From Fodinibius halophilus (GTDB lineage Bacteria; Bacteroidota; Rhodothermia; Balneolales; Balneolaceae), in the NCBI RefSeq assembly GCF_011059105.1, contig NZ_JAALLS010000002.1, positions 1 to 64,000 of the forward strand: a stretch of DNA of 64,000 nucleotides, given 5' to 3'. The position numbers were made by a program, and so were the translations under genes. Positions 17,106-30,687 of this stretch are shown here, piece after piece (the stretch's first letter is position 1; each line of letters starts with the position of its first letter). The notes beneath the pieces were generated by a model. The model was given only the letters and a program-made list of their open reading frames with translations. It did not search any database and was not told where the DNA came from.

Positions 17106-17672
17106 TTACACTTCAAAGGGTTTATGATTCTGCCACCAATGCCAGGTCCGCAATAGGGCAATAACCGTTTTACCGTCGGTAATCTCACCTCGATGTACCA
17201 TATCTATGGCATTTCGAAACGGGATACGCTCTGTTATCAAAAACTCATCTTCATCCACCGCCTGCTCAAAAGAGCTAATATCCCAAGCTACATAGCAGTG
17301 GATTATCTCATCTGAATAGCCAATACCGGGATAGAAGTGGCCGACATAGTCAAACCTCTTACATTGTAGTCCCGCTTCTTCTTTTAGCTCACGTTCGGCC
17401 GTTGATCCGGCACTTTCATCCGGATCAATCTTCCCGGCCGGCACCTCATAAAATATTTGACCCACAGGGTATCGAAATTGACGTACCAGCATAATATCCC
17501 CATTTTCAAAAACCGGTACTACGGCTGAGGCCCCCGGATGCTTAATCCACTCTCGTGTTGCTGTGGTATCATCAGGAAGAAGCACTTCATCAAAATAAAC
17601 ATGGAGCAGTCGCCCGCTAAATATTTTGGTGGATGTACGTATTTGCTCTACAAGTTCATGGGAGTCGTTCAT
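17106..17672 (-). CDS. Nudix hydrolase, ADP-ribose pyrophosphatase-like
   Basis: A 188-residue Nudix enzyme with the complete Nudix box GKIDPDESAGSTAERELKEE-AG (G-x5-E-x7-REL-x-EE-x-G). The preceding FRYPVGQIFYEVPAGKID is typical of the ADP-ribose/NudF subgroup. Expected reaction: cleavage of ADP-ribose or related nucleoside diphosphate sugars with Mg2+. It is monocistronic and divergent from the phosphatidyltransferase gene. Confidence 0.9.
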   Translation of the reverse strand: MNDSHELVEQIRTSTKIFSGRLLHVYFDEVLLPDDTTATREWIKHPGASAVVPVFENGDIMLVRQFRYPVGQIFYEVPAGKIDPDESAGSTAERELKEEAGLQCKRFDYVGHFYPGIGYSDEIIHCYVAWDISSFEQAVDEDEFLITERIPFRNAIDMVHRGEITDGKTVIALLRTWHWWQNHKPFEV

Positions 17673-17754
17673 AGCAAGATTTTTATGTATCTTTAGCCGT
17701 AGTTGGATTTATCCAATTTTCACAATTAAATGATAACAAAGATATAAGTTTTCG

Positions 17755-18345
17755 TTGTCCGAAACATTTAACATTGACCAACAAGATTTTGAGGTAAAGC
17801 AAGACCTTTTTACGTGGTCGAATGCGATCTCTTTTTCGCGCATTCTCATTGCCTTACCCATTGTATATTTGCACTATACCAATGGACAGCAAATTACGTG
17901 GGTAATTACTGCACTTGTGTTATACGGTATCTTTTCAGATTACCTGGATGGCTATATTGCACGCTTTACAAACAATGTTACCGAATGGGGCAAAATACTG
18001 GACCCGCTGGCAGATAAATTCTGCGCATTCATCTTATTTTTGTATGCTACCTATATCGGCATTATTCCCCTTTGGTTTTTTATTATTGAAATTGCCCGGG
18101 ATGCTTTTATTATGGCTGGGTCGCTGTATATTCGAAATTTGCGCGGCAAAGTAGCTATGGCAGTAATGTCCGGTAAAATAAGTGTTAATGTATTGGGATT
18201 ATACTGGCTTGCTGCCTTTTTCTATCCCGGGGCCACGGCAGTTCACCAGATGCTGATGGGCGCATCGCTGGCGCTTATGTTTTTCTCCTTCTTTGATTAT
18301 CTTCATCGATTCAACCAAATACGAAAGGGCGTCGCATTTAACTAA
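17755..18345 (+). CDS. CDP-alcohol phosphatidyltransferase (PgsA-like)
   Basis: A 196-residue membrane enzyme with the family signature D-x2-DG-x2-AR-x8-G-x3-D-x3-D, seen as DYLDGYIARFTNNVTEWG followed by KILDPLADK. About five transmembrane helices follow. It transfers a phosphatidyl group from CDP-diacylglycerol to an alcohol, most likely glycerol 3-phosphate, but other acceptors cannot be excluded. The start is a TTG; no in-frame ATG precedes the conserved region. Confidence 0.9.
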   Translation: MSETFNIDQQDFEVKQDLFTWSNAISFSRILIALPIVYLHYTNGQQITWVITALVLYGIFSDYLDGYIARFTNNVTEWGKILDPLADKFCAFILFLYATYIGIIPLWFFIIEIARDAFIMAGSLYIRNLRGKVAMAVMSGKISVNVLGLYWLAAFFYPGATAVHQMLMGASLALMFFSFFDYLHRFNQIRKGVAFN

Positions 18346-18474
18346 GCCTTTTTTAAGTACGTTTTTAATTTTAGCACATAATAGCCTCTCCCTTGCAGAG
18401 AGCATCCTGGATCTCACGGGAACTACTCAGAGAAACAGGCTGACATTTTATTTTTTAAATACGAAGCACGACAT

Positions 18475-19428
18475 ATGGGTTTTTTAGAAAAAATTGGTCT
18501 CAAGAAAAAAGAGAAAGTAGAAAAGGGCGTCGAAAAAAGCCGCTCCGGTATCATGAAAAAAATTGGCAAGGCTATTGCCGGTAAAGATACCGTTGACGCT
18601 GCCGTACTCGATGAGCTGGAAGAAATCCTCATCACTTCGGATGTGGGCGTCAAAACAACGCTCGAGATTATCGACCGTATCGAAAACCGTGTTGCCAAAG
18701 ACAAATACCTCAACAGTGATGAGCTGCAGCGAATTTTACGCGAGGAGATTATTGGCCTGCTCAAAGATCATTCCGCTGACAAACCGGCCGAGTTTGATGC
18801 TGAATTCCCTCAGAAACCCCATATTGTGATGGTAGTAGGGGTCAACGGAGTGGGCAAAACAACCTCGATCGGCAAGCTGGCCCATCTCTACAAAAAGGCA
18901 GGTAAAACCGTTATGCTCGGCGCCGCTGATACCTTTAGGGCTGCTGCAGTAGATCAACTTAAGATCTGGAGCGAACGCGCGGATGTACCTATCATCCAAC
19001 AGGGACAAAATGCCGATCCCGCAGCTGTTGCTTACGATACCGTGGAATCTACCAAAGCCAAAGGGGCAGATATCGCCCTTGTTGATACGGCCGGACGCCT
19101 TCACAACAAGAAGTCGTTAATGGAAGAGCTTGCGAAAATAAAACGTGTTATGGGGAAAGTGGTGGATGGCGCCCCTCACGAAGTATTACTAGTGCTTGAT
19201 GCTTCCACCGGACAAAATGCGATGCAACAAGCAAAGGCTTTTACCGATTTTGTAGATATCACCGGCTTGGTGCTCACAAAGCTTGACGGTACCGCCAAAG
19301 GAGGCATTGTTATAGGAGTCTCAAATGAATTGGACGTGCCCGTTAAATATATTGGAGTTGGGGAAGAGATCGAAGATCTACAAGTCTTTGATCGCGAACT
19401 CTTTGTTAATTCTATGTTTAAAGACTAA
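18475..19428 (+). CDS. ftsY: Signal recognition particle receptor FtsY
   Basis: A 317-residue SRP receptor GTPase. It has a short basic N-terminus (GFLEKIGLKKKEKVEKG) that can bind membranes directly, the N domain, then the NG domain with G1 GVNGVGKTTSIGKLA, DTAGR and TKLDGTAKGG. It delivers ribosome-nascent chains from Ffh to SecYEG. The long acidic A domain of E. coli FtsY is absent, as in many bacteria. Confidence 0.97.
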   Translation: MGFLEKIGLKKKEKVEKGVEKSRSGIMKKIGKAIAGKDTVDAAVLDELEEILITSDVGVKTTLEIIDRIENRVAKDKYLNSDELQRILREEIIGLLKDHSADKPAEFDAEFPQKPHIVMVVGVNGVGKTTSIGKLAHLYKKAGKTVMLGAADTFRAAAVDQLKIWSERADVPIIQQGQNADPAAVAYDTVESTKAKGADIALVDTAGRLHNKKSLMEELAKIKRVMGKVVDGAPHEVLLVLDASTGQNAMQQAKAFTDFVDITGLVLTKLDGTAKGGIVIGVSNELDVPVKYIGVGEEIEDLQVFDRELFVNSMFKD

Positions 19429-19540
19429 ATATCGAGAGCGTAGAAAGAGCCACCGGAAATTTCCATTTTTATTTTTCAACTTTTTTAGTGACCATTAACC
19501 TTATAATGGCTTAAGGACATTTCCCAAAAAAGGTATCGGT

Positions 19541-22500
19541 TTGGCTTACAGGGCTCTCAACAAGCTATTGCAATCAGCAATAGCAATTGTATTACTCTTT
19601 CTTTTGACTCCAATCTTAGGATGGGGACAAAAAAGTGGGACTCTAGCACTTCAGAAAGGAGATTCGCTGGCTTATGCTGCACAATACGATTCAGCAAACT
19701 TCTTTTACAAACAAGCAACCCGCCTTTTTAATCAAGAAAAGAACTGGGACAAAAAAGTTACGGCCCTCTATGCTATTAGTAGTAACAAAACTTCACAAGG
19801 TAACATAGATGAAGCTGAACAGTATCTTGACAAGGCCAGAACTATTGCTCAGCACTACCTTACCAAGAGCCATATCTTCCATACAAAGTACTTATATCAA
19901 AAAGGGCGTATTGCAGAAACCAAGGCAAAGTATGATTCGGCACTAACCTACTATCACAAAGCCTCTGATCTTGCAAACTCCTCCAGTTCCGATAAAAGCC
20001 TGGAATGGCAAATTAAGGTACTGGCTGGTACAGGTGAAGTATATATTGCAAAAGGAAAATATGATCTGGCTTCACAAAAACTGGACAGAGCCGAAGCTCT
20101 ATATCATCAATTCCAACTATACAAACCGAGAATATTAAGTCGTATCTATAATAGTCACGGCACGGCTTTTAAAAACTTGGGACAGTATAAAAAGTCCCTG
20201 GAGTACTATATAGAGTCACTGGAGATAGATCGTCAAACTCTGCCCCGCCACCACCCGGAATTGGCAAAGTCGAACAACAATATTGCCATTATTTATTTCT
20301 ACCAGAGTGATTACCAGCGGGCACTCGACCATATGAAAAATGCGGTTAAGGTATTAACCAACTTCCATGGTGAAAACCACCGACTGGTCGCCCGCGGATA
20401 TAATAATATTGGTATTGTCTATTCTGAAATAGGAGAACTTGAAAAAGCAACCGAATACCTTAAAAAAACGCTCCGAGTCCGAAAAAATATTTTAGGGAAA
20501 GAACATCCTGAAATTGCCATAGGTCACCAAAACCTGGGGGCGATCTATTATGATCGGGGAAAATATGAACAAGCAATTAATCATTATAAAAAAGCCCAAG
20601 CCATACACCTTAAGCATTTCCCAGAAGGACACCCCGAATTAGGCAACGTATACGCCAACTTGGGGCAGGCATATAATGCAAAGGGAGATTACAAAAAAGC
20701 TCTGGATTTCTATCATAAAGATCTGGATATAAACCTAGATCTTTTAGGGGCTGAGCATCCTTTTATTGGTGACACCTATGCTAAAATTGGAGAAACATAC
20801 GCTCATAATAATAATTATACCAAGGCCTTAAGCTACTACGAGCGTGCTGTCTCTATTTTTGTTTCCAATTACAGCCAAGAGATTAGCCTCGGTGAAATTG
20901 CACTGGAAGAGGTTTTATATCCTGCTAAACTTCTGGAAACACTGCGTTTAAAAAGCCAAGCGATTAAACAGCATGCTGATAAATCAGATGAACCTCTATC
21001 GCTGCTGGATCAATCATTGCAAACCTACTTACAGGCTGTTCAGCTAATTAACAAGCTGCAGAAATCTTATAAAAGAGAAGGGTCCAAGTTTTTATTGCGC
21101 AATCGAACCTCTGAGCTATACCACCAAGGCTTTCAAACAGCATTTCGCCTATACCAAAGAACGGGAAATACCGACTACAAAGAGTACGCCTTCTACTTTG
21201 TGGGCCAGAGCCAAAGCCAAATTCTTCTGGAAGAGATGCAAAAAGATGTTGCGCAATCATTTGCCAATATTCCCGACTCACTTATTGCCCGAGAGGCCGC
21301 CCTTCGTACCAAGCTAACAACTTTGCAGCAACAACTTTCCAGCTCAGCCCAAAATCCTCAACAAACGGACTCTACCAAACGTTTTGCCCTGGAAGACTCT
21401 CTCTTCCACCTCCAAAAAGCATTGAGTAATCACACCAAAACCCTGGAATCATCCTATCCCAAATATTACCGGCATAAATATCAGCCCCTTATTACTCGAG
21501 CTTCAGAAATACAAGAAAAGTTTCTGGCGCCACAAAAGACTGCTATTCAATACTTTTTCAGCGAAGAGGCTTTATATGCATTTATAATAACAAGTAACGA
21601 CTTTCAACTTCGTAAACTTAGTACCGACTCTCTTCTATCTCAAAAAGTTAAAGCATATCGTAACGTAATCACTGAAACCTCTTCAGCATCAGATTTCAGC
21701 TCCAAAAGTCACGCTCTTTATAAACAGCTTATAGAACCTATTGAAGACGCTATTGAGGGAACCAAGCTTCTTATTATTCCTGATGGGAATTTACACTACC
21801 TACCTTTTGAAAGCTTGGTAAGCAAAAATAAAAAAAACAACCCTTCCAAACGCTTCCATGATCTACCTTATCTTGTTAATGATTATACCATCAGTTACGC
21901 TCCCTCAGCCAACTATATAGAGCTATATCACCAGGAACGCCCCCACGAAACCTCTAAAAAGCTTGTCGCTTTTGCCCCGGTCTTCTCTGAAATTTCAACA
22001 GATGAAAAAAGAGAACTATACCCAGCTTATAAGCGGCCATTACCTTCTTTGCCTCTCAGCAAACAGGAAGTGCAAAGAATTGAAGAACTTATGAACTCTT
22101 CTCAAGGCTTTTGGCCTTTTCAAAAAGAAGAGGAAACGACAGTCCTCATTGAAGATGAAGCCACAGAACGAAATTTTAAAAACCTGCCTCTGGAAGATTA
22201 TCGCTATATACACCTGGCAACGCATGCTTATGTCTCCGAAGAAAATCCCCACCAGTCGGGTATACTGTTCAGTGTTAATCCAGAACACCCAAAGGATGGT
22301 ATTTTACATGCTTCCGAAATTTATAACCTCTCGTTGAATGCTGAACTTGTTACGTTGAGTGCCTGTAAAACAGGAGTGGGACAAATGGTAAACGGAGAAG
22401 GAATAATAAGTTTGAGCAGGGCCTTCCAATACGCCGGGGCACGCAACCTTCTGGTCTCGCTCTGGAATGTCAATGACCGGGCCACCTCCTATCTTATGGT

Positions 22501-22633
22501 CGCTTTTTATGAACAACACCAAGATGAACAATCCATCTCTTTAGCTTTACAACAAGCAAAAGAAAAAAATATAGCAGAAAAACGATATGCACATCCGAAA
22601 TATTGGGCCCCCTTTATTTTTATTGGCCAATAA
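19541..22633 (+). CDS. Secreted TPR-CHAT protein 1 (caspase-like protease domain)
   Basis: A 1030-residue protein. A TTG start gives a hydrophobic signal segment (SAIAIVLLFLLTPILGWGQ). Residues 35-430 hold about nine tetratricopeptide repeats, the later ones kinesin-light-chain-like, about 42 residues each with HPE/HPx turns. A helical linker follows, then a CHAT domain at about 690-1030 with the catalytic dyad His895 (HLATHA) and Cys942 (LSACKTG) and the usual end YWAPFIFIGQ. The CHAT fold is a clan CD cysteine protease; the dyad is intact. It lies head-to-tail with a second TPR-CHAT gene. Confidence 0.9.
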   Translation: MAYRALNKLLQSAIAIVLLFLLTPILGWGQKSGTLALQKGDSLAYAAQYDSANFFYKQATRLFNQEKNWDKKVTALYAISSNKTSQGNIDEAEQYLDKARTIAQHYLTKSHIFHTKYLYQKGRIAETKAKYDSALTYYHKASDLANSSSSDKSLEWQIKVLAGTGEVYIAKGKYDLASQKLDRAEALYHQFQLYKPRILSRIYNSHGTAFKNLGQYKKSLEYYIESLEIDRQTLPRHHPELAKSNNNIAIIYFYQSDYQRALDHMKNAVKVLTNFHGENHRLVARGYNNIGIVYSEIGELEKATEYLKKTLRVRKNILGKEHPEIAIGHQNLGAIYYDRGKYEQAINHYKKAQAIHLKHFPEGHPELGNVYANLGQAYNAKGDYKKALDFYHKDLDINLDLLGAEHPFIGDTYAKIGETYAHNNNYTKALSYYERAVSIFVSNYSQEISLGEIALEEVLYPAKLLETLRLKSQAIKQHADKSDEPLSLLDQSLQTYLQAVQLINKLQKSYKREGSKFLLRNRTSELYHQGFQTAFRLYQRTGNTDYKEYAFYFVGQSQSQILLEEMQKDVAQSFANIPDSLIAREAALRTKLTTLQQQLSSSAQNPQQTDSTKRFALEDSLFHLQKALSNHTKTLESSYPKYYRHKYQPLITRASEIQEKFLAPQKTAIQYFFSEEALYAFIITSNDFQLRKLSTDSLLSQKVKAYRNVITETSSASDFSSKSHALYKQLIEPIEDAIEGTKLLIIPDGNLHYLPFESLVSKNKKNNPSKRFHDLPYLVNDYTISYAPSANYIELYHQERPHETSKKLVAFAPVFSEISTDEKRELYPAYKRPLPSLPLSKQEVQRIEELMNSSQGFWPFQKEEETTVLIEDEATERNFKNLPLEDYRYIHLATHAYVSEENPHQSGILFSVNPEHPKDGILHASEIYNLSLNAELVTLSACKTGVGQMVNGEGIISLSRAFQYAGARNLLVSLWNVNDRATSYLMVAFYEQHQDEQSISLALQQAKEKNIAEKRYAHPKYWAPFIFIGQ

Positions 22634-22670
22634 AAAAAGCCCCATGCACAAACATGGGGCCCTTTATAAC
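22632..22670 (-). terminator. Terminator between the CHAT gene and the small peptide gene
   Basis: A perfect stem GCCCCATG / CATGGGGC (22639-22646 and 22653-22660). The T run is on the - strand (AAAAAAA on the + strand at 22632-22638), so it primarily terminates a leftward transcript. That matches the short leftward ORF at 22687-22791. It may also end CHAT 1 transcription. Confidence 0.85.
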
Positions 22671-22686
22671 TTTAAATTGATACTAC

Positions 22687-22791
22687 CTATTCAGTTGTAG
22701 TCGTACTAGTATCTTCGTCCTCTGTTGTATCGGAAGTATCTTGATCTGGCATAGCTAGTGCTAACGATTGCTCTTCTGAAAATAAAAACAT
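22687..22791 (-). CDS. 34-residue acidic peptide gene between the two CHAT genes
   Basis: On the - strand an ATG at 22791 opens MFLFSEEQSLALAMPDQD followed by an Asp/Glu/Thr-rich tail (DTSDTTEDEDTSTTTTE) and TAG. An unusually good Shine-Dalgarno, AGGAGA, lies 7 nt before the ATG, and a perfect terminator follows 20 bp after the stop. These two signals are the main support; length alone would not be convincing. The short hydrophobic start plus an acidic Thr-rich tail is unlike any family I know. Position suggests a substrate, inhibitor or secreted product of the TPR-CHAT proteins, which is inference. Confidence 0.6.
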   Translation of the reverse strand: MFLFSEEQSLALAMPDQDTSDTTEDEDTSTTTTE

Positions 22792-22947
22792 GATGGTCTC
22801 CTGATTTTTTTATTTATAATTAACGTACAACGCACTCTTTTTATAGAATGCTTAAAAAATATGACATAATTTGGCACCAAAGGCAAACTTGTTAACTTAT
22901 ACAAGAATTTAGATAAAAAGCATAGATATCGCTCATACAAATTCAGG

Positions 22948-25881
22948 ATGAATATAAAACGGCTACTTATTATCGGGATCACCCTGCTGGCGGGGGTTCC
23001 CTGGGCAGTTTGTGGGCAAAGCCTGCAGCTGGCCGACTCGCTCTATCAAAAAGGGAAACAGTACGATAACAGCGGCCACAAAAAAAAGTCTGAATTCTAT
23101 TACCGGGAAGCCTATAATATCTATAGCGACTACCAAGACACCGCTTCCTTATTAAAAGCCGGAAAGGAATATGCGAGTGCAATGATGTGGCTTTCAAAAA
23201 ATGAGAAAGCCATGGCCCTTTATAAGAAGCTGCTCAAAATAGACCACCCTGCCAGTGATGCCTATTACCGGGGCGACCTCTACAATAGTATGGGATTGTC
23301 TTCGCGAAAAACCGGTAAATTAGATCAGGCCCTTACGTATTATGAGAAATCCCTTGAGTTAGCTAAACAGTCAAAAAACAGCCTGCTTATTGGGGTGGTG
23401 TTCAGCAATTTCGGAACCGTATATGAAACAAAAGGGAATTATACCAAGGCTATGGATTTCTATGAGAAATCATTGCCTTATTTTAAAGGAATAAATCGTA
23501 AAAAAAATATTGCCATCACCTTTTCTAATATAGGAAGTATCTATTCAGGCTTGGCCCTCTATGACCAGGCCCTTGTATATTTTAATCGAAGCCTGGAAAT
23601 AAAGAAAAAAGATGGAGATGTCCGACAACTAGCTGAAACATACCAGCAAATTGGTAGCGTCCAACGGAAACGCGGAAACTACGATCAAGCGTTGGTTTCG
23701 TACCAAAAAAGCCTTGAATTCAGCCGAAAGGCCGGAACCCCTAAAGAAACGGCCAGTGCTTTAAATAGCATTGGGTTACTCTACAAACAGCTAGGAGAAT
23801 TAGATAAAGCGCTCAGCTATTACCAACAGAGCCTTGCCATTGCCGAAAAAACGGCCGGCCCCTTATTTATGGCAACCAAGTTGAATAATATTGGGCAGCT
23901 GCTCTGGGAACAAGACAAAATTGAACAGGCAAGTGGCTATTTTATTAAAGCCTATAAGCTTCGGAAAAAAGCGGGGAACCCCCATGAAATTTATGGCTCT
24001 CTTATTAGGATGTTCAGGGTGAACCTCGAAAAAGAGAAGTTCCAGGAAGCAAAGAACTATGCCACCCAACTTAAAACGATAGGAGATTCGACCGACAGCT
24101 ACAAAATGTTACGTACTGCTGCTGAGTTTTTTGGAGAAATAGAACAAGAAAAAGGAAATCTGGAATCTGCTCTCACCCAGTATAAAAAAGCGTATGCCTA
24201 TAGTGAGTTTTTACCCCCAACCTATAAACTACAATCTGCTAAAAATATGGGGAGTCTCTATCACAAACTAAATTCTGACAGTGCTGTCACCTATGGAAAA
24301 AAAGCCATTCGGCTCATTGAAAAACACCGCTCCAATGCAGGTGCTGTTTCAGAGCTTAAATCGGGATATTTTGGCCAACACTCCGATTTCTATACCGAAG
24401 TTGCTTCCTGGATTCTAACATATTCGCAAGCCCCAGCACAAGCGTATAAACTGGTAGAGCAAGCCAAGGCACGCTCGTTGAGTGATCAGCTGGCCCGGGC
24501 CTCCCAAAACATCGACCAGATACTGCCCAAAGAGGTGCGTATTGAACGCCGGAAAAAACATAGCCAGATTGAAGAGCTATATACCCGGCTGGAACAAACG
24601 ACAGACAAAGACGAGCGAGCTGATATTGAGCAAAAAATCCGATCAGTCGAGCTTAACTATGCCGCCTATGAAAATAATTTGCATAATGAATATCCAGAAC
24701 TAAAATCGCTGAAATCCCCCGAACCAATATCTCTGGAACGGGCCCAAGCACTTACTGACGAACAAACAGCCGTACTTGAATATGCACTTGCGGGTAATCA
24801 GCTGATCATCTTTTTGATAAGCTCAAGTAATGTTCATGTAGAGCAAATATCGTTATCTGACAGCCAGCCATTGGACGAACAGCTCACTGACTTAGTGGCT
24901 AATTTCAAAGGAGCTATTTTATCCAATGCCCCACGCGCTCAACTGCGGTCTCAATCCACCGAGCTGTACAATACTTTGTTAAAACCTTTTGAGGACGAAC
25001 TTGAATCATTTTCTAACTTAATTATAGTCCCGGACGGTGCTTTGGCTTACCTTCCCTTTGAAGCCCTGTCTCGAGGCGATCAGTACCTGATTGAACGTTT
25101 CAATATTAAGTATGAGCCTTCGCTTACGAGTTTGGCTCTGCTTAAAGAATCAGAAAGTCCCAGCCAGCAGGATTTACTGGCCGTTGCAGGGTCAAATTTT
25201 TCGGGAGAGAATAACAATAATCCCAGGTTCCGGCAGAGTAACCTTTCTGCCCTGCCTTCTACCCTGATGGAGGTTGACTCTATTGCATCCCAGTTCCCTC
25301 GGTCTGCTATCCTTAAAGAGGATGAAGTATCAGAAGAACGCTTTAAAGAGATGCTTCAACAGAACCAATATCGATATGTCCATATGGCTACACATGGTAT
25401 TATTGATGAAGACCGTCCCAGCAGAAGCGGGCTGGCCCTATCCTCTGAGGGGGAGCTCACAGCATCCTCAAAAGAAGACGGCATGCTGCGCAGTTCCGAA
25501 ATTTTTGGGCTCGATATAAATTCTGACATGGTGGTGCTAAGCGCCTGTAACACCGGCCTGGGCAAGGTGGTAAAAGGGGAGGGCATTCTGGGGATGCAGC
25601 GCTCCTTTTTCTATGCCGGGGCTTCTACCGTAGTTGTAAGTCTGTGGAATGTTTATGACCGTTCGACGGCTTCGTTTATGACGGAATTTTATAAAGCTCT
25701 CAAAAACACCCCCTCTGAAGAAGGGTGGACCGACAGCATGCTCCGATGGGTAGGGTGGGACGAGTCTATCCCCTTTGGGCCCAAAGCCAAAGCTATGCGA
25801 AAAGCAAAACTAAAGATGATTAAACACCCACTGTTTAATCATCCGGTATATTGGGCTCCATTTATAGTTGTCGGCCGGTAA
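22948..25881 (+). CDS. Secreted TPR-CHAT protein 2 (caspase-like protease domain)
   Basis: A 977-residue relative of the preceding CHAT protein with the same plan. A signal peptide (LLIIGITLLAGVPWAVCGQ) is followed by about nine 40-residue TPRs at 30-440 (LDQALTYYEKSLELAKQSKN type), a coiled helical linker (VRIERRKKHSQIEELYTRLEQ) and a CHAT domain at about 630-977. The dyad is His816 (HMATHG) and Cys867 (LSACNTG), ending YWAPFIVVGR. A 60-residue insertion before the final strand (about 900-955, Trp-rich) distinguishes it from CHAT 1. Sequence divergence suggests different TPR partners. Confidence 0.9.
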   Translation: MNIKRLLIIGITLLAGVPWAVCGQSLQLADSLYQKGKQYDNSGHKKKSEFYYREAYNIYSDYQDTASLLKAGKEYASAMMWLSKNEKAMALYKKLLKIDHPASDAYYRGDLYNSMGLSSRKTGKLDQALTYYEKSLELAKQSKNSLLIGVVFSNFGTVYETKGNYTKAMDFYEKSLPYFKGINRKKNIAITFSNIGSIYSGLALYDQALVYFNRSLEIKKKDGDVRQLAETYQQIGSVQRKRGNYDQALVSYQKSLEFSRKAGTPKETASALNSIGLLYKQLGELDKALSYYQQSLAIAEKTAGPLFMATKLNNIGQLLWEQDKIEQASGYFIKAYKLRKKAGNPHEIYGSLIRMFRVNLEKEKFQEAKNYATQLKTIGDSTDSYKMLRTAAEFFGEIEQEKGNLESALTQYKKAYAYSEFLPPTYKLQSAKNMGSLYHKLNSDSAVTYGKKAIRLIEKHRSNAGAVSELKSGYFGQHSDFYTEVASWILTYSQAPAQAYKLVEQAKARSLSDQLARASQNIDQILPKEVRIERRKKHSQIEELYTRLEQTTDKDERADIEQKIRSVELNYAAYENNLHNEYPELKSLKSPEPISLERAQALTDEQTAVLEYALAGNQLIIFLISSSNVHVEQISLSDSQPLDEQLTDLVANFKGAILSNAPRAQLRSQSTELYNTLLKPFEDELESFSNLIIVPDGALAYLPFEALSRGDQYLIERFNIKYEPSLTSLALLKESESPSQQDLLAVAGSNFSGENNNNPRFRQSNLSALPSTLMEVDSIASQFPRSAILKEDEVSEERFKEMLQQNQYRYVHMATHGIIDEDRPSRSGLALSSEGELTASSKEDGMLRSSEIFGLDINSDMVVLSACNTGLGKVVKGEGILGMQRSFFYAGASTVVVSLWNVYDRSTASFMTEFYKALKNTPSEEGWTDSMLRWVGWDESIPFGPKAKAMRKAKLKMIKHPLFNHPVYWAPFIVVGR

Positions 25882-26579
25882 TATTTCAGAAATGAACAGT
25901 CTTTGGGTTGCTCAGATTATTATTAAGCAATTTTAATAAATATCAGTCATCCTATTATCCCTCTCACCATAGTTCTCATTCCTTCATAAGTTCAAATAGT
26001 ACGTGCAACAACATGAAGTAAGCCCAGATAGGTGGTGGTCCTAGTACTTTAGGAATAACTCTTAAATCGTCATCGAAATTTCTCCTTCTTATGGAAGAGG
26101 AGTGGTTTGGCAACCACCCCTGTCCACTCTACTGCTGTCCAGACGGACTTGCGATATATCGACTTTTCCCCTCTAGAGCTGTGGAAAAAGTAACCAGCCT
26201 GGAGTCAAAAATACTGCCAGTTTATTAATCCAGTGCATGGACCATAACCTGGCCTTTGATAATGATCAAGCACTTTCCCACCATCAAAATATTGCTGAGG
26301 GGGACTTACTTGAATAAGATCTGCAAGAAGCACATTGGAACCGTCGATCAATACCTGAAGGTGATTCCTGTTCACCTATCCGGCAAACCTTAAAAGCTCC
26401 CTTTGTTGCATTAGTTAGTTGAATACGGCCTTTTATAAATTTACTTTTCCCTTTACAACTGGGTCTATAACACCCCGCTTAGCGATTGGAGGCCATGGCC
26501 CATAACGCAATATATCCCTCTTGTCATCCCGGACTTGATCCGGGATCTCTTGGTCGTATTTATAGGGCTTTCTATTTAT
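25882..26579. repeat. Intergenic region with a decayed segment shared with 36.7-37.4 kb
   Basis: No intact gene. Segments at 25987-26140 and about 26380-26430 match 36680-36900 and 37305-37355 in the same order (for example TCTTAAATC, GGTTTGGCAACCACCCCTG, CAAACCTTAAAA and GCATTAGTTA-TTGAAT). Near 26524-26552 is the dispersed dyad TCATCCCGGACTTGATCCGGGATCTC. Both copies look like remains of one duplicated, decayed sequence. Confidence 0.6.
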
Positions 26580-28295
26580 TCAAAAATTCTGATCCTTCGT
26601 GATCTCAATAAATTTTTGGTTATCTACTTCAGGTGCTCTCTCAGCATTTGTTATTGCTACCGTTGATCCATAGATCGTACGAACGATCTTAGTTAATTTA
26701 TCAAAACGTATTTTATGCACCTCGTCAGAAGGACGGTGGTAATCTTCGTGAACGCCAGTAAAGAAGAACACAAAGGGCACGCCCTTACGGCCAAAGTGCC
26801 AATGGTCGCTGCGTCGATAAAACTGGTTGGGATCTTGCAGATCGTTATATCGATCACTTAGCTTTATCTGTCCGCTGCGTTCGTTGCCGGCCTTTACAAG
26901 GCTATCGAGCTGAGAAGAGATAATATCACCGCCTATGATGTAGCTATAGTTCTCAATCCCCTCTTCTTCATGCTTTCTATCAATACGGCCAATCATATCA
27001 ATATTAATATTAGCTACCGTTTGCTCCATGGAAAAAACCGGGTGATCGGAATAATATCGTGACCCCAGCAGCCCTTTTTCTTCTGCTGATACATTTAGAA
27101 AAAGGATACTCCGTTTGGGCTTTACGTTATTTTCACCGGCTTTAGCAAAGGCCCGTGCCACATTAAGTAACCCTATGGTGCCACTCCCATCGTCATCAGC
27201 CCCGTTATAGATACGATCGCCTGTAGAGTCAGGGGCCCCAACTCCTACATGGTCGTAATGAGAGGTGAGCACCACTACCTCATCTTTGAGTTCGGGATCA
27301 GCTCCTTCGTAAAAGGCCAATACATTTCTTGAATCAACTTCTTTCTGCGTTGAGTAAGGAATATGACTTAGCTGATATGGCAGCTCCTTGGGCTTGAACG
27401 CTGAAACATCTTCAATCAGACCTTGTTTATGTACAGCCAAGGCCGTTTCTGATTCGAGCCCCAGTATACGTGCCGCAAGTGACGGGTTTATAATGTTATA
27501 TCCTTTGCTAAACCCACCGGCAGACTCCTTATCACGATAGGCAAGCCCTAGCCGACCAACCTTTCCGTAGTTGGTTTGTGCTTTTTGCGCACGCTCCTCA
27601 AACTCTGCTGTAGTTGCAGCGGGGATAATAAGCATCCCTTTAGCACCCCGGCTCATGATTGTTTGAAAACGTGCCCGAGTGTTAATTGCAGGATTTATCA
27701 GTGTGTCCTCATCTACTGTATGGGGTATCTTTTCAAATACCATTACCCATTTGCCTTTCAGCTCAACGTCGTTGAGATGTTGAACTCCGCGAGAACTATC
27801 GGCAACTCCAAATCCCGCAAAAACGATCTCAGCCTGCAGGCTGTCTGTACCCCCATAACGGCGAATAAAATTAGCAGATGAGTTTTTGCTGGCGGTAGAA
27901 TGGTCAATGAGTTTCTTTTGGTCACTTTCAGTGTTATAGACACTAAAAACAACACTGTCACTTTTAGCTCCTGCTAATTTAAAGCTCTGAAAATAGGTAT
28001 TGTTATCGCCTACCGGCTTCAGCCCTATCTCCCGGTACTCGGCAGCAAGATAATCAGCTGCCTTTTTTTCTGACGCTGTGCCAGCCTCACGCCCTTTCAT
28101 AGAATCGGCAGAAAAGGCTGCTAAATGTTTCTTCAAATACGCAGAAGAGATTTCATTCTGGTATTCCAGCAGAGCACTACTGTTGGTACTGGGGGTGGGG
28201 GATGATTGCTCTTCTTGCACGGATGATTCTGAGCCGGCACAACCAATAAATAAAATTGCCAGGATCAGGGATAAAACAACGGTTCTTGTGTTCAT
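26580..28295 (-). CDS. M28-family zinc metallopeptidase lipoprotein with PA domain
   Basis: A 571-residue lipoprotein. The signal ends in the lipobox LFIGC at about residue 19, followed by a Ser-rich linker. A protease-associated domain is inserted at about 170-290. The M28 core carries the metal ligands in LTSHYDHVG, YNGADDDGSG, NVSAEEKGLLGS and NINIDMIG, and a final His in HEDYHRPSDE. The enzyme releases N-terminal amino acids or small peptides outside the cytoplasm. It is the last gene of a leftward pair with scpA, 20 bp apart. Confidence 0.92.
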   Translation of the reverse strand: MNTRTVVLSLILAILFIGCAGSESSVQEEQSSPTPSTNSSALLEYQNEISSAYLKKHLAAFSADSMKGREAGTASEKKAADYLAAEYREIGLKPVGDNNTYFQSFKLAGAKSDSVVFSVYNTESDQKKLIDHSTASKNSSANFIRRYGGTDSLQAEIVFAGFGVADSSRGVQHLNDVELKGKWVMVFEKIPHTVDEDTLINPAINTRARFQTIMSRGAKGMLIIPAATTAEFEERAQKAQTNYGKVGRLGLAYRDKESAGGFSKGYNIINPSLAARILGLESETALAVHKQGLIEDVSAFKPKELPYQLSHIPYSTQKEVDSRNVLAFYEGADPELKDEVVVLTSHYDHVGVGAPDSTGDRIYNGADDDGSGTIGLLNVARAFAKAGENNVKPKRSILFLNVSAEEKGLLGSRYYSDHPVFSMEQTVANINIDMIGRIDRKHEEEGIENYSYIIGGDIISSQLDSLVKAGNERSGQIKLSDRYNDLQDPNQFYRRSDHWHFGRKGVPFVFFFTGVHEDYHRPSDEVHKIRFDKLTKIVRTIYGSTVAITNAERAPEVDNQKFIEITKDQNF

Positions 28296-28314
28296 AGGTC
28301 AATAATAAATTAGA

Positions 28315-29058
28315 TTAATTGGTTCCAATAATTTCGTCAACGGGTTTTAAATCAAGATAAAAAGAGGTAGGATCGTCATCATCAACATAGAGATTAATCT
28401 GTCGTTCTTTTAACATCTCCAGGACTGCCAAAAAAGTGACCACAATTTTCGCTCTGGTTTCCAGTTCCATACAAAAATCATAAAAAGAGGTGCGCCCCTC
28501 TTGTTGCAATCGCTCTAACACGTATTCTGTTTGGTCTTCAATGGAGTGTTCAATTTTTTCGACGTGATGGACCGCCTCCTGCCTTTTAATATCTGTAAGT
28601 ACCTTTTTAAAAGCGGTCATTAAATCAAACATAGTTACATCCTGCAGGGCCTCACCGCTTGCTTGCTTCTCCACCTGATCAGCCTGATGATAACCTCGGA
28701 AGCGCTTTTTCTGTGCCTCTTCTTCAATGTCTTCCATTTTAGCGGCCATCTCTTTATAGCGCTTATATTCCAGCAGCTGTTGTACGAGCTCATAACGAGG
28801 GTCGTGCTCATCCAGCTTATCATCACTTTCTTCTTGGGGCAGCATCATCTTTGCCTTTATCGACATAAGCATGCTGGCCATTAAAATAAACTCGCTGGCT
28901 ACATCCAGGTCCAGCTCTTCCATTAATCCAATATATTCCAGAAACTGGTTGGTAATATATGAGATGGGAATATCATAGATATCGAGTTCGTCTCTTTTAA
29001 TAAAGAACAGCAGCAGGTCCAGCGGACCTTCAAAATTTTTGAGTTGAACGCGATACAT
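28315..29058 (-). CDS. scpA: Segregation and condensation protein A
   Basis: A 247-residue ScpA. The family N-terminus (VQLKNFEGPLDLLLFFIKRDELDIYDIPISYIT) and a central EFILMASMLMSIKAKMMLP are clear, with a C-terminal winged helix. ScpA is the kleisin of the SMC-ScpAB condensin. No scpB is adjacent; the downstream gene is an unrelated M28 peptidase. Confidence 0.95.
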   Translation of the reverse strand: MYRVQLKNFEGPLDLLLFFIKRDELDIYDIPISYITNQFLEYIGLMEELDLDVASEFILMASMLMSIKAKMMLPQEESDDKLDEHDPRYELVQQLLEYKRYKEMAAKMEDIEEEAQKKRFRGYHQADQVEKQASGEALQDVTMFDLMTAFKKVLTDIKRQEAVHHVEKIEHSIEDQTEYVLERLQQEGRTSFYDFCMELETRAKIVVTFLAVLEMLKERQINLYVDDDDPTSFYLDLKPVDEIIGTN

Positions 29059-29213
29059 GTAATTGTCTAACTATATTGAGTTGTGCCAAATATAAGCTGA
29101 TCTGCCCCAAAAAAGGAAATATTTCCCGCTTTTACTATTAAAGTTTAATACTGATGAATCTTATTGCTTAAATCTTTATACTCATTGATTAAACTGGTAT
29201 AGACTTTTTTCCT

Positions 29214-29759
29214 ATGGACTATTCTAACTTAGTAACAGCTCTACAAGAGAACGACACAAAAAAAGTGAATGAGTTGATTTCAGCGCTTCGCCCTCGTCTC
29301 ATCGCTTTTTTGCGCATACATATGAATGCGACCCAAGAAGATGCCGAAGATTGTGCCCAAGACTCCCTTTTAACTTCTATTGAAATTATCAATGAAGATC
29401 GTATTCAAAATCCCGAGCAGGTAGTTTCTTATATCCTTTCTACCTGTCGAAATACGTACTTGAAGATGCAGAAAAAGAAGCGACCGGAAGCAACAGACGA
29501 TATTTCTGACAAACATCAACAAGCTCCACGTCAACTTCAGTCACTACTGGACAAAGAGCAGAAGCGATTACTCAATATTTGTATGGACCAACTAAAAGAA
29601 AAACACCAGTCATTTATGCAGTATTGGTTTGATCATCCCGATGCCCAGGCAAAAAAGGTGGCAGACCATTTTAACATCAGCCTGAGTAATACCTGGACTC
29701 GCAAGCATCGCATCATAAAGAAGCTAAATGAGTGCTATACAAAAAAAAGTAAATTATAA
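29214..29759 (+). CDS. ECF-type sigma factor
   Basis: A 181-residue sigma factor. Region 2 is at about 15-85 (NATQEDAEDCAQDSLLTSIEI) and region 4 at about 125-175, where the helix-turn-helix is AKKVADHFNISLSNTWTRKHRIIKKL. Region 4 is unusual (FMQYWFDHPDAQAKKVADHF), indicating a diverged ECF subgroup. It precedes a gene for a membrane TPR protein and probably forms a sigma/anti-sigma pair with it. In Bacteroidota-like genomes such pairs often sit near TPR-CHAT genes, as here. Confidence 0.88.
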   Translation: MDYSNLVTALQENDTKKVNELISALRPRLIAFLRIHMNATQEDAEDCAQDSLLTSIEIINEDRIQNPEQVVSYILSTCRNTYLKMQKKKRPEATDDISDKHQQAPRQLQSLLDKEQKRLLNICMDQLKEKHQSFMQYWFDHPDAQAKKVADHFNISLSNTWTRKHRIIKKLNECYTKKSKL

Positions 29760-29853
29760 TGTAAGGATTCGGCTTTTCGAGGGTCTTACTTAACAGACCC
29801 TCGAAGTTAAATTGCTTATAAAGCAATTCAAGCGTGAAATAAACTTTTTTGTT

Positions 29854-30687
29854 ATGAACAAGATATCAAGAGACTTAGAGCTCGAACAACAAATAGATGC
29901 CTACATCAAAGGCAAGCTTACCGAAGAGCAGGCCGAAGCATTGTGGGAGAAGCTTCTATTACACCCCCAGTATATTGAACTACTGGAAACTGAATTAGGT
30001 GTCCAATCAATTCTGGATGAGTCCGCTTCTACTGATACGAGTGAGAACTCTTCCGAAGTAAATGATGAAACCATCATCTATTCTATGCAGCGATCCTGGA
30101 AGTGGATTGCCGCTGCAGCTTCAGTTGCTATTTTAGTTGTTGCCATTAACTTTCTGCAACAGGATACTAATCAATCAATACAGGAACTGGCACTTAATAA
30201 TATTAATATTTCTACCAATCTTTCCTCTGCTCCTGTCATGCGGTCACAGAAAGCAACCATTGCCCCGGCCGACTCGCTTCTAAATCGAGGGTTCCAGGCG
30301 TCACTTTCCGGAGATGTAAAGAAGGCACTGCAGTTCTACAATAAAATTATCACCCAGTATCCTAATAAGTCAGCTGCTGTAAAAGCCTATTTAAATAAGG
30401 GTATTATTCAGTATAACGCCGGCGAGTTCAAGTCTTCGATTACTGCTTTTAAAGAAGTTATTAATAACGTAAAAAAGAATCCGGTTACCGAAGAAAAAGC
30501 ATACTGGTATATGGGGAACGCCTATATCAATATTGAACAACTTTCTAAAGCGCGAGAAGCGATTCATACTGCCTACTCTATGGATGGCATTTATCGACAA
30601 CCGGCCTATCGCATCCTTCGAAAGCTGGACCACGAGCTTGGTAATGTTGATTTTGATGATTTTGAACAGCAAATGAAAGAAGGATAA
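29854..30687 (+). CDS. Membrane TPR protein, probable anti-sigma partner
   Basis: About 277 residues from ATG 29854 (a TTG at 29812 would add a basic stretch without homology-like features). Residues 1-60 form an anti-sigma-like acidic helical segment (LELEQQIDAYIKGKLTEEQAEALWEKL). A transmembrane helix lies near 82-105 (WKWIAAAASVAILVVAINFL). The C-terminal 130 residues contain about three TPRs (LLNRGFQASLSGDVKKALQF; KAYLNKGIIQYNAGEFKSSI). The TPR part would be periplasmic and could sense secreted TPR-CHAT proteins; that is inference. Confidence 0.75.
   Translation: MNKISRDLELEQQIDAYIKGKLTEEQAEALWEKLLLHPQYIELLETELGVQSILDESASTDTSENSSEVNDETIIYSMQRSWKWIAAAASVAILVVAINFLQQDTNQSIQELALNNINISTNLSSAPVMRSQKATIAPADSLLNRGFQASLSGDVKKALQFYNKIITQYPNKSAAVKAYLNKGIIQYNAGEFKSSITAFKEVINNVKKNPVTEEKAYWYMGNAYINIEQLSKAREAIHTAYSMDGIYRQPAYRILRKLDHELGNVDFDDFEQQMKEG

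Follow-up and report, generated by a model that had tools for sequence, protein, structure and literature searches.

To our knowledge, neither a partner nor a substrate nor a trigger has been described for most bacterial TPR-CHAT proteins, and the one case that has been worked out needs a CRISPR complex. Separase, a CHAT-clan protease with a helical-repeat arm, has a disordered binding partner, securin, and in the RRNPP systems (Rap-Phr, NprR-NprX) the gene of a TPR receptor adjoins a short peptide gene that evolves fast. The RRNPP receptors are cytoplasmic, and most of the pro-peptides bear a signal sequence. Staphopain and SpeB are exported cysteine proteases of a clan different from that of CHAT. 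Secreted cysteine proteases can be encoded next to dedicated inhibitors, as in the staphostatin-staphopain and Spi-SpeB pairs (PMC2873492). In Craspase, or CASP, of the type III-E CRISPR systems, a TPR-CHAT protease occurs with an ECF factor and a partner gene dedicated to it, and Csx30 inhibits CASP-sigma until it is cleaved, which provides a precedent for CHAT-ECF coupling (PMC10028731).

We analysed a window of 64,000 nucleotides from Fodinibius halophilus, in which the gene of a TPR-CHAT protein predicted to be exported (CHAT2) lies beside a divergent gene of 34 codons. As in Craspase, the gene of a TPR-CHAT protease shares its locus with that of a dedicated partner and with an ECF factor, and the predicted structure of CHAT2 matches Csx29 (8eey_B, E 5.5e-15; Foldseek). 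However, CHAT2 would be exported, its partner is a peptide of 27-49 aa in contrast to the 565 aa of Csx30, and gRAMP/Cas7-11, Csx30 and Csx31 were absent among the neighbours examined across the family (FtsY, PgsA, M28, ScpA, ECF and TPR-anti-sigma). The short, fast-evolving peptide gene beside a TPR protein also recalls the RRNPP systems, and the TPR profile of CHAT2 has matches to RapF/H/J and NprR as well as to the peptide-binding TPR proteins LGN and kinesin light chain, as would be expected of any TPR array; the topology is reversed, however, with a putatively exported receptor and a leaderless peptide, and a CHAT protease serves as output domain. Compared to the staphostatin and Spi pairs, which CHAT2 and its peptide resemble in that a dedicated small partner is encoded beside an exported cysteine protease, the peptide gene is divergent and not co-transcribed, and the partner is much smaller. 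The CHAT2 model matches separase structurally, but separase is eukaryotic and not exported, and securin is much larger than the CHAT2 peptide. Lastly, the match of lowest E-value that Foldseek gave for the CHAT2 model (2.9e-16, about 1000 columns) is DdvA, a transmembrane anti-sigma factor (PDB 8rot, 8rw5), but with low TM-scores (0.23-0.36), 12% identity and DdvA itself being the anti-sigma factor, this match is a lead and not a membership. In the open full-text literature, we found no published description of a peptide-CHAT2 pair.

The CHAT proteins and their neighbourhood

The features of the window that are referred to in the following are:

19541..22633, plus strand: CHAT1, tandem paralogue of CHAT2 (26% identity), 1030 aa, TTG start, dyad H895/C942
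22632..22662, minus strand: intrinsic terminator after the peptide gene, a GC-rich stem followed by a T-run, in the gap to the convergent CHAT1
22687..22791, minus strand: peptide gene of 34 codons, starting with the ATG at 22791 and running divergently from CHAT2
22797..22802, minus strand: ribosome site AGGAGA of the peptide gene, five bases from the ATG
22858..22888, minus strand: promoter-like block GTTTG-N3-TTGG-N2-CCAAATTATR-N2-ATATT upstream of the peptide gene
22948..25881, plus strand: CHAT2, TPR-CHAT protein predicted to be exported, 977 aa, dyad H816/C867, obligately linked to the peptide gene across genomes
26580..28295, minus strand: M28-family peptidase, exported and lipoprotein-like, a conserved neighbour
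28315..29058, minus strand: ScpA-like gene, a conserved neighbour named by eye from sequence and synteny
29214..29759, plus strand: ECF sigma factor, TIGR02937 above cut-off
29812..30687, plus strand: probable anti-sigma factor, with a cytoplasmic N-terminus, one transmembrane segment and extracytoplasmic TPRs, its role being suggested by this layout

The original prediction described CHAT1 and CHAT2 as proteins with signal segments, intact His/Cys dyads and about nine TPRs each. With 227 and 231 bits, respectively, against a cut-off of 24 (E about 1e-67), CHAT1 and CHAT2 belong to the CHAT peptidase family PF12770 of Pfam, and both are predicted to have protease activity. The two dyads align with the catalytic motifs HxATH and SAC of CHAT proteins and are intact as described, H816 and C867 being invariant in 33 CHAT2 sequences. 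Signal-like N-termini were likewise found on both proteins, and since a hydrophobic one is present in 33/33 CHAT2 sequences, CHAT2 is predicted to be Sec-exported. Both proteins contain many TPRs, but the predicted helices of CHAT2 bring the number nearer to ten or eleven than to nine.

An AlphaFold2 model of CHAT2, built from 33 sequences (mean pLDDT 82), consists of a TPR superhelix followed by the CHAT domain, and its best Foldseek matches are DdvA, Csx29/TPR-CHAT and separase. Sequence variability is higher in the TPR arm, with a mean column entropy of 2.32, than in the CHAT part, with 1.48. A sequence search of the PDB with the CHAT domain alone gave no match, and the PADLOC defence models returned generic TPR matches only.

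Within the family, probably Balneolaceae, the order at this locus is NUDIX, PgsA, FtsY, CHAT1 (where present), peptide, CHAT2, M28, ScpA, ECF and TPR-anti-sigma. Over much of the family the gene order of window positions 17106-30687 is retained, the CHAT slot being occupied by CHAT1, CHAT2, both or neither. The pair of ECF and TPR-anti-sigma genes that had been noted nearby is a usually conserved neighbour, the ECF gene starting 3.3 kb past CHAT2. In two genomes (G005/G006), the anti-sigma gene is more than 20 kb away and the peptide-CHAT2 pair is intact; in G099, ECF and anti-sigma genes lie directly 3' of CHAT1; and in G036 and G039, ECF/TPR-anti-sigma pairs are found at the locus without any CHAT gene.

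Coding evidence for the peptide gene

The reverse-strand ORF (22791..22687) translates to MFLFSEEQSLALAMPDQDTSDTTEDEDTSTTTTE, and it was found together with its AGGAGA site and its own terminator as originally described. The ribosome site is mostly kept within the genus as TCAGGAGAnCATNATG, which has a single occurrence in the own genome, and terminator-like hairpins are present 3' of the ORF in most orthologues. The promoter-like block is partially conserved among genus members, and its pattern, which was derived from these same sequences, has one occurrence in the window and none in shuffles. A plain text search of the window for the genus-level core AAAAGTTTG, from which the copy in the window deviates at one position, did not find it in the gaps before ECF and CHAT1; a shared ECF promoter was rejected on this basis, and since the core is absent from both gaps, control of the peptide by the ECF factor is unsupported. 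No Pfam or NCBIfam model matched the peptide, and the idea of a paralogue family within the own genome was rejected as the only match was the peptide itself.

A tblastn search with the peptide retrieved clear orthologues in the same genus only, each of them divergent from a CHAT2 orthologue. When the gaps preceding all CHAT2 genes of the family were inspected, a divergent ORF of 27-49 codons was seen immediately upstream of CHAT2 in 41 of 41 CHAT2-bearing genomes, which represent 10 genera. The start codons of distant members were picked by eye, and some may be misplaced by a few residues. The spread beyond the genus is missed by sequence search because the divergence is too fast. Common to the peptides is a layout in which a short aromatic/hydrophobic N-terminal stretch, often with P-D-x-[DE] or P-G-G, is followed by an acidic, Gly- or Pro-rich tail. 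The peptide had initially been characterised as acidic and Thr-rich; its acidity holds, but the Thr-rich tail is limited to F. halophilus and is replaced by Asp/Gly- or Pro-rich tails in its relatives.

With a length of only 34 codons, the ORF might have arisen by chance in AT-rich intergenic DNA. When the tail acidity of the best minus-strand ORF was compared with 200 dinucleotide shuffles of each locus's own intergenic region, however, p was <=0.02 in 22 of 23 loci and 0.07 in the remaining one, and the mean acidity score of the plus-strand control was negative. As the score was picked after the peptides had been seen, this result supports rather than proves coding. A codon test, which is independent of the acidity score, gave pN/pS below 1 in all listed peptide-gene pairs, within the genus as well as in other clades, and in nearly all of these pairs the third codon position is the one that changes most. 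A chance origin, contradicted by the shuffles, the conservation and the codon statistics, is refuted by these data and has a negligible probability. The codon pattern shows the signature of purifying selection on the peptide despite very fast sequence divergence, and the comparative genomics supports a real, translated gene of a small protein that forms a two-gene module with CHAT2.

One could also imagine that the transcript matters and not the peptide, namely as a small regulatory RNA or as a divergent promoter transcript that controls CHAT2. The promoter-like block and terminator delimiting a short transcript, as well as the position next to the CHAT2 promoter, would fit this idea, and the absence of an Rfam family for the peptide-gene region is compatible with it. 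Against it stand the third-position changes and pN/pS values below 1 in several separate clades, which are a coding signature, the length changes in whole codons and the ribosome site kept by most genus members. The fold is also unexceptional (z -1.5), and a regulatory RNA was rejected as a candidate given the missing Rfam match and the ordinary fold. From our point of view, an effect through the transcript is hence improbable.

Genomic link between the peptide gene and CHAT2

In the original prediction, the peptide was enclosed by, and thereby assigned to, a pair of CHAT proteases. The proposed tie to a CHAT protease is borne out by a real, conserved gene beside CHAT2, the conservation extending to all 41 CHAT2 loci, but the partner is CHAT2 alone. 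CHAT1 is missing from many loci that retain the peptide (e.g. G006, G005, G011 and G014), and no acidic mini-ORF was found at nine CHAT1-only loci of the family (G012, G018, G019, G022, G026, G029, G030, G078 and G099). As the peptide is present without CHAT1 and absent where only CHAT1 occurs, it is a partner of CHAT2 and not of the CHAT pair. An acidic mini-ORF was equally not found at five CHAT-free loci of the family (G015, G017, G025, G031 and G033). These absence calls use an acidity threshold and a few true members are near neutral, so that a neutral peptide could escape them.

Inside the CHAT2 clade, CHAT2 and the peptide were lost jointly at least twice (G017 and G015/G033), and on a tree of FtsY and PgsA the presence label switches four times, with at least three switches forced by the starred branches. 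Since the peptide gene accompanies CHAT2 in 41 of 41 genomes and was not found at the 14 family loci that lack CHAT2, the peptide and CHAT2 very probably work as a pair. Charge complementarity between the peptide and the CHAT2 TPRs was tried as a further link and rejected, as a raw rho of -0.50 gave way to an r of -0.02 after independent contrasts; the peptide charge follows the TPR charge through phylogeny only.

The synteny of the NUDIX-PgsA-FtsY-CHAT-M28-ScpA-ECF locus across most of the family raises the question whether the peptide might instead serve another neighbour (FtsY, M28 or ScpA) or an unrelated process, its adjacency to CHAT2 being merely inherited. However, FtsY and ScpA, and usually M28, persist in genomes that contain neither CHAT2 nor the peptide. 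Moreover, in one genome (G028, L035:6438-9736) a C39-ABC transporter and an HlyD-like gene, both named by eye from sequence with the C39 domain being assigned by a Peptidase_C39 match, adjoin the peptide gene in the usual place of FtsY, which is thus non-adjacent, yet the peptide gene and CHAT2 still adjoin. We consider a role for another neighbour very improbable.

Compartment, possible mechanism and a second CHAT locus

Among 40 peptides, no signal-like segment was found, save for two with weak hydrophobicity. Since a leaderless peptide is paired with a putatively exported CHAT2, two leading readings can be imagined, namely that (i) the peptide is a ligand or substrate of CHAT2; or (ii) it guards the cytoplasm.

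For the first, in which binding of the peptide as ligand or substrate would switch the CHAT2 protease, we see about an even chance. Its short hydrophobic/aromatic N-terminus, together with the acidic segment behind it, could fill the groove of the TPRs or the active site of the CHAT domain. The peptide would have to meet the exported CHAT2 via some exporter, through release upon lysis or by a contact that precedes CHAT2 export. More speculatively, the output of CHAT2 might act on the anti-sigma factor, whose extracytoplasmic part also consists of TPRs, and through it on the nearby ECF sigma factor. With regard to an exporter, the C39-ABC transporter of G028, a genome with seven Peptidase_C39 matches, is adjacent to the peptide gene only there among the loci inspected. 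Peptidase_C39 was not found in the peptide-bearing genomes G004, G008, G013, G014, G016, G020, G023, G024, G027, G032 and G034, and C39-ABC as a general export route was rejected because the transporter is missing from many peptide-bearing genomes.

Alternatively, and with a tentative standing, the leaderless peptide could inhibit CHAT2 or keep it unfolded prior to export and in this way shield the cytoplasm, a role proposed for staphostatins and Spi towards their secreted cysteine proteases; the conserved P-D-x-[DE] stretch might then, just as tentatively, represent an inhibitory loop. Because the peptides carry no signal segment while CHAT2 always does, the cytoplasm would be the simplest meeting place. 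It also fits that there is a single peptide gene per CHAT2, which is lost along with CHAT2, and that secreted cysteine proteases with dedicated inhibitors encoded alongside are known (PMC2873492). However, such inhibitors are co-transcribed with their protease whereas the peptide and CHAT2 genes diverge, the peptides are far below staphostatin size and mostly of low complexity, and the exported paralogues CHAT1 and CHAT3 do without a leaderless peptide.

One could lastly speculate that the ligand or substrate reading extends to a complete circuit, in which exported CHAT2 is the receptor for a lineage-specific, fast-diverging peptide whose binding gates cleavage of the anti-sigma factor and frees the ECF sigma factor. 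We regard this full version as doubtful; if true, the peptide would exit the cell by some export route or by lysis, and the family would contain two circuits of this kind, CHAT2 working with a leaderless peptide and CHAT3 with small lipoproteins encoded in tandem.

In the own genome, CHAT3 is flanked by a further ECF gene on one side and a further TPR-anti-sigma gene on the other, the latter convergent with CHAT3. The coordinates of this locus are L044:3258-9122 (own genome C89), and further CHAT3 loci are L101-L108 and L110. In most relatives examined, one to six tandem genes lie ahead of CHAT3 and encode small acidic lipoproteins, mostly of 59-86 aa, with a ..CAS(V)TD.. motif and in many cases a DKPE end; the copies are near-identical within a genome and diverged between genomes. 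Such tandem lipoproteins were not found in G016 and G024 or at the contig-end loci of G009 and G017. The CHAT2 and CHAT3 loci thus both combine a CHAT gene with small acidic peptides and ECF/anti-sigma genes.

With an obligately linked, fast-diverging peptide, one can directly address how a free-standing CHAT protease is activated or held back. Ordinary annotation misses a gene of this small size and high variability, and other unannotated mini-genes beside CHAT proteases are worth looking for. Outside the family, no peptides beside CHAT proteins were found in the orders and families sampled; one possible case (G054) coincides with an assembly gap at that spot. In four loci from other classes or families (L087, L088, L092 and L094), the CHAT genes are directly preceded by the gene of a different exported protein (..AQDRVAVLTEVAGTVE.. 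in L087; ..QGCSDAGFCTMGAMKPDQP.. in L092 and L094), which is possibly a different CHAT partner.
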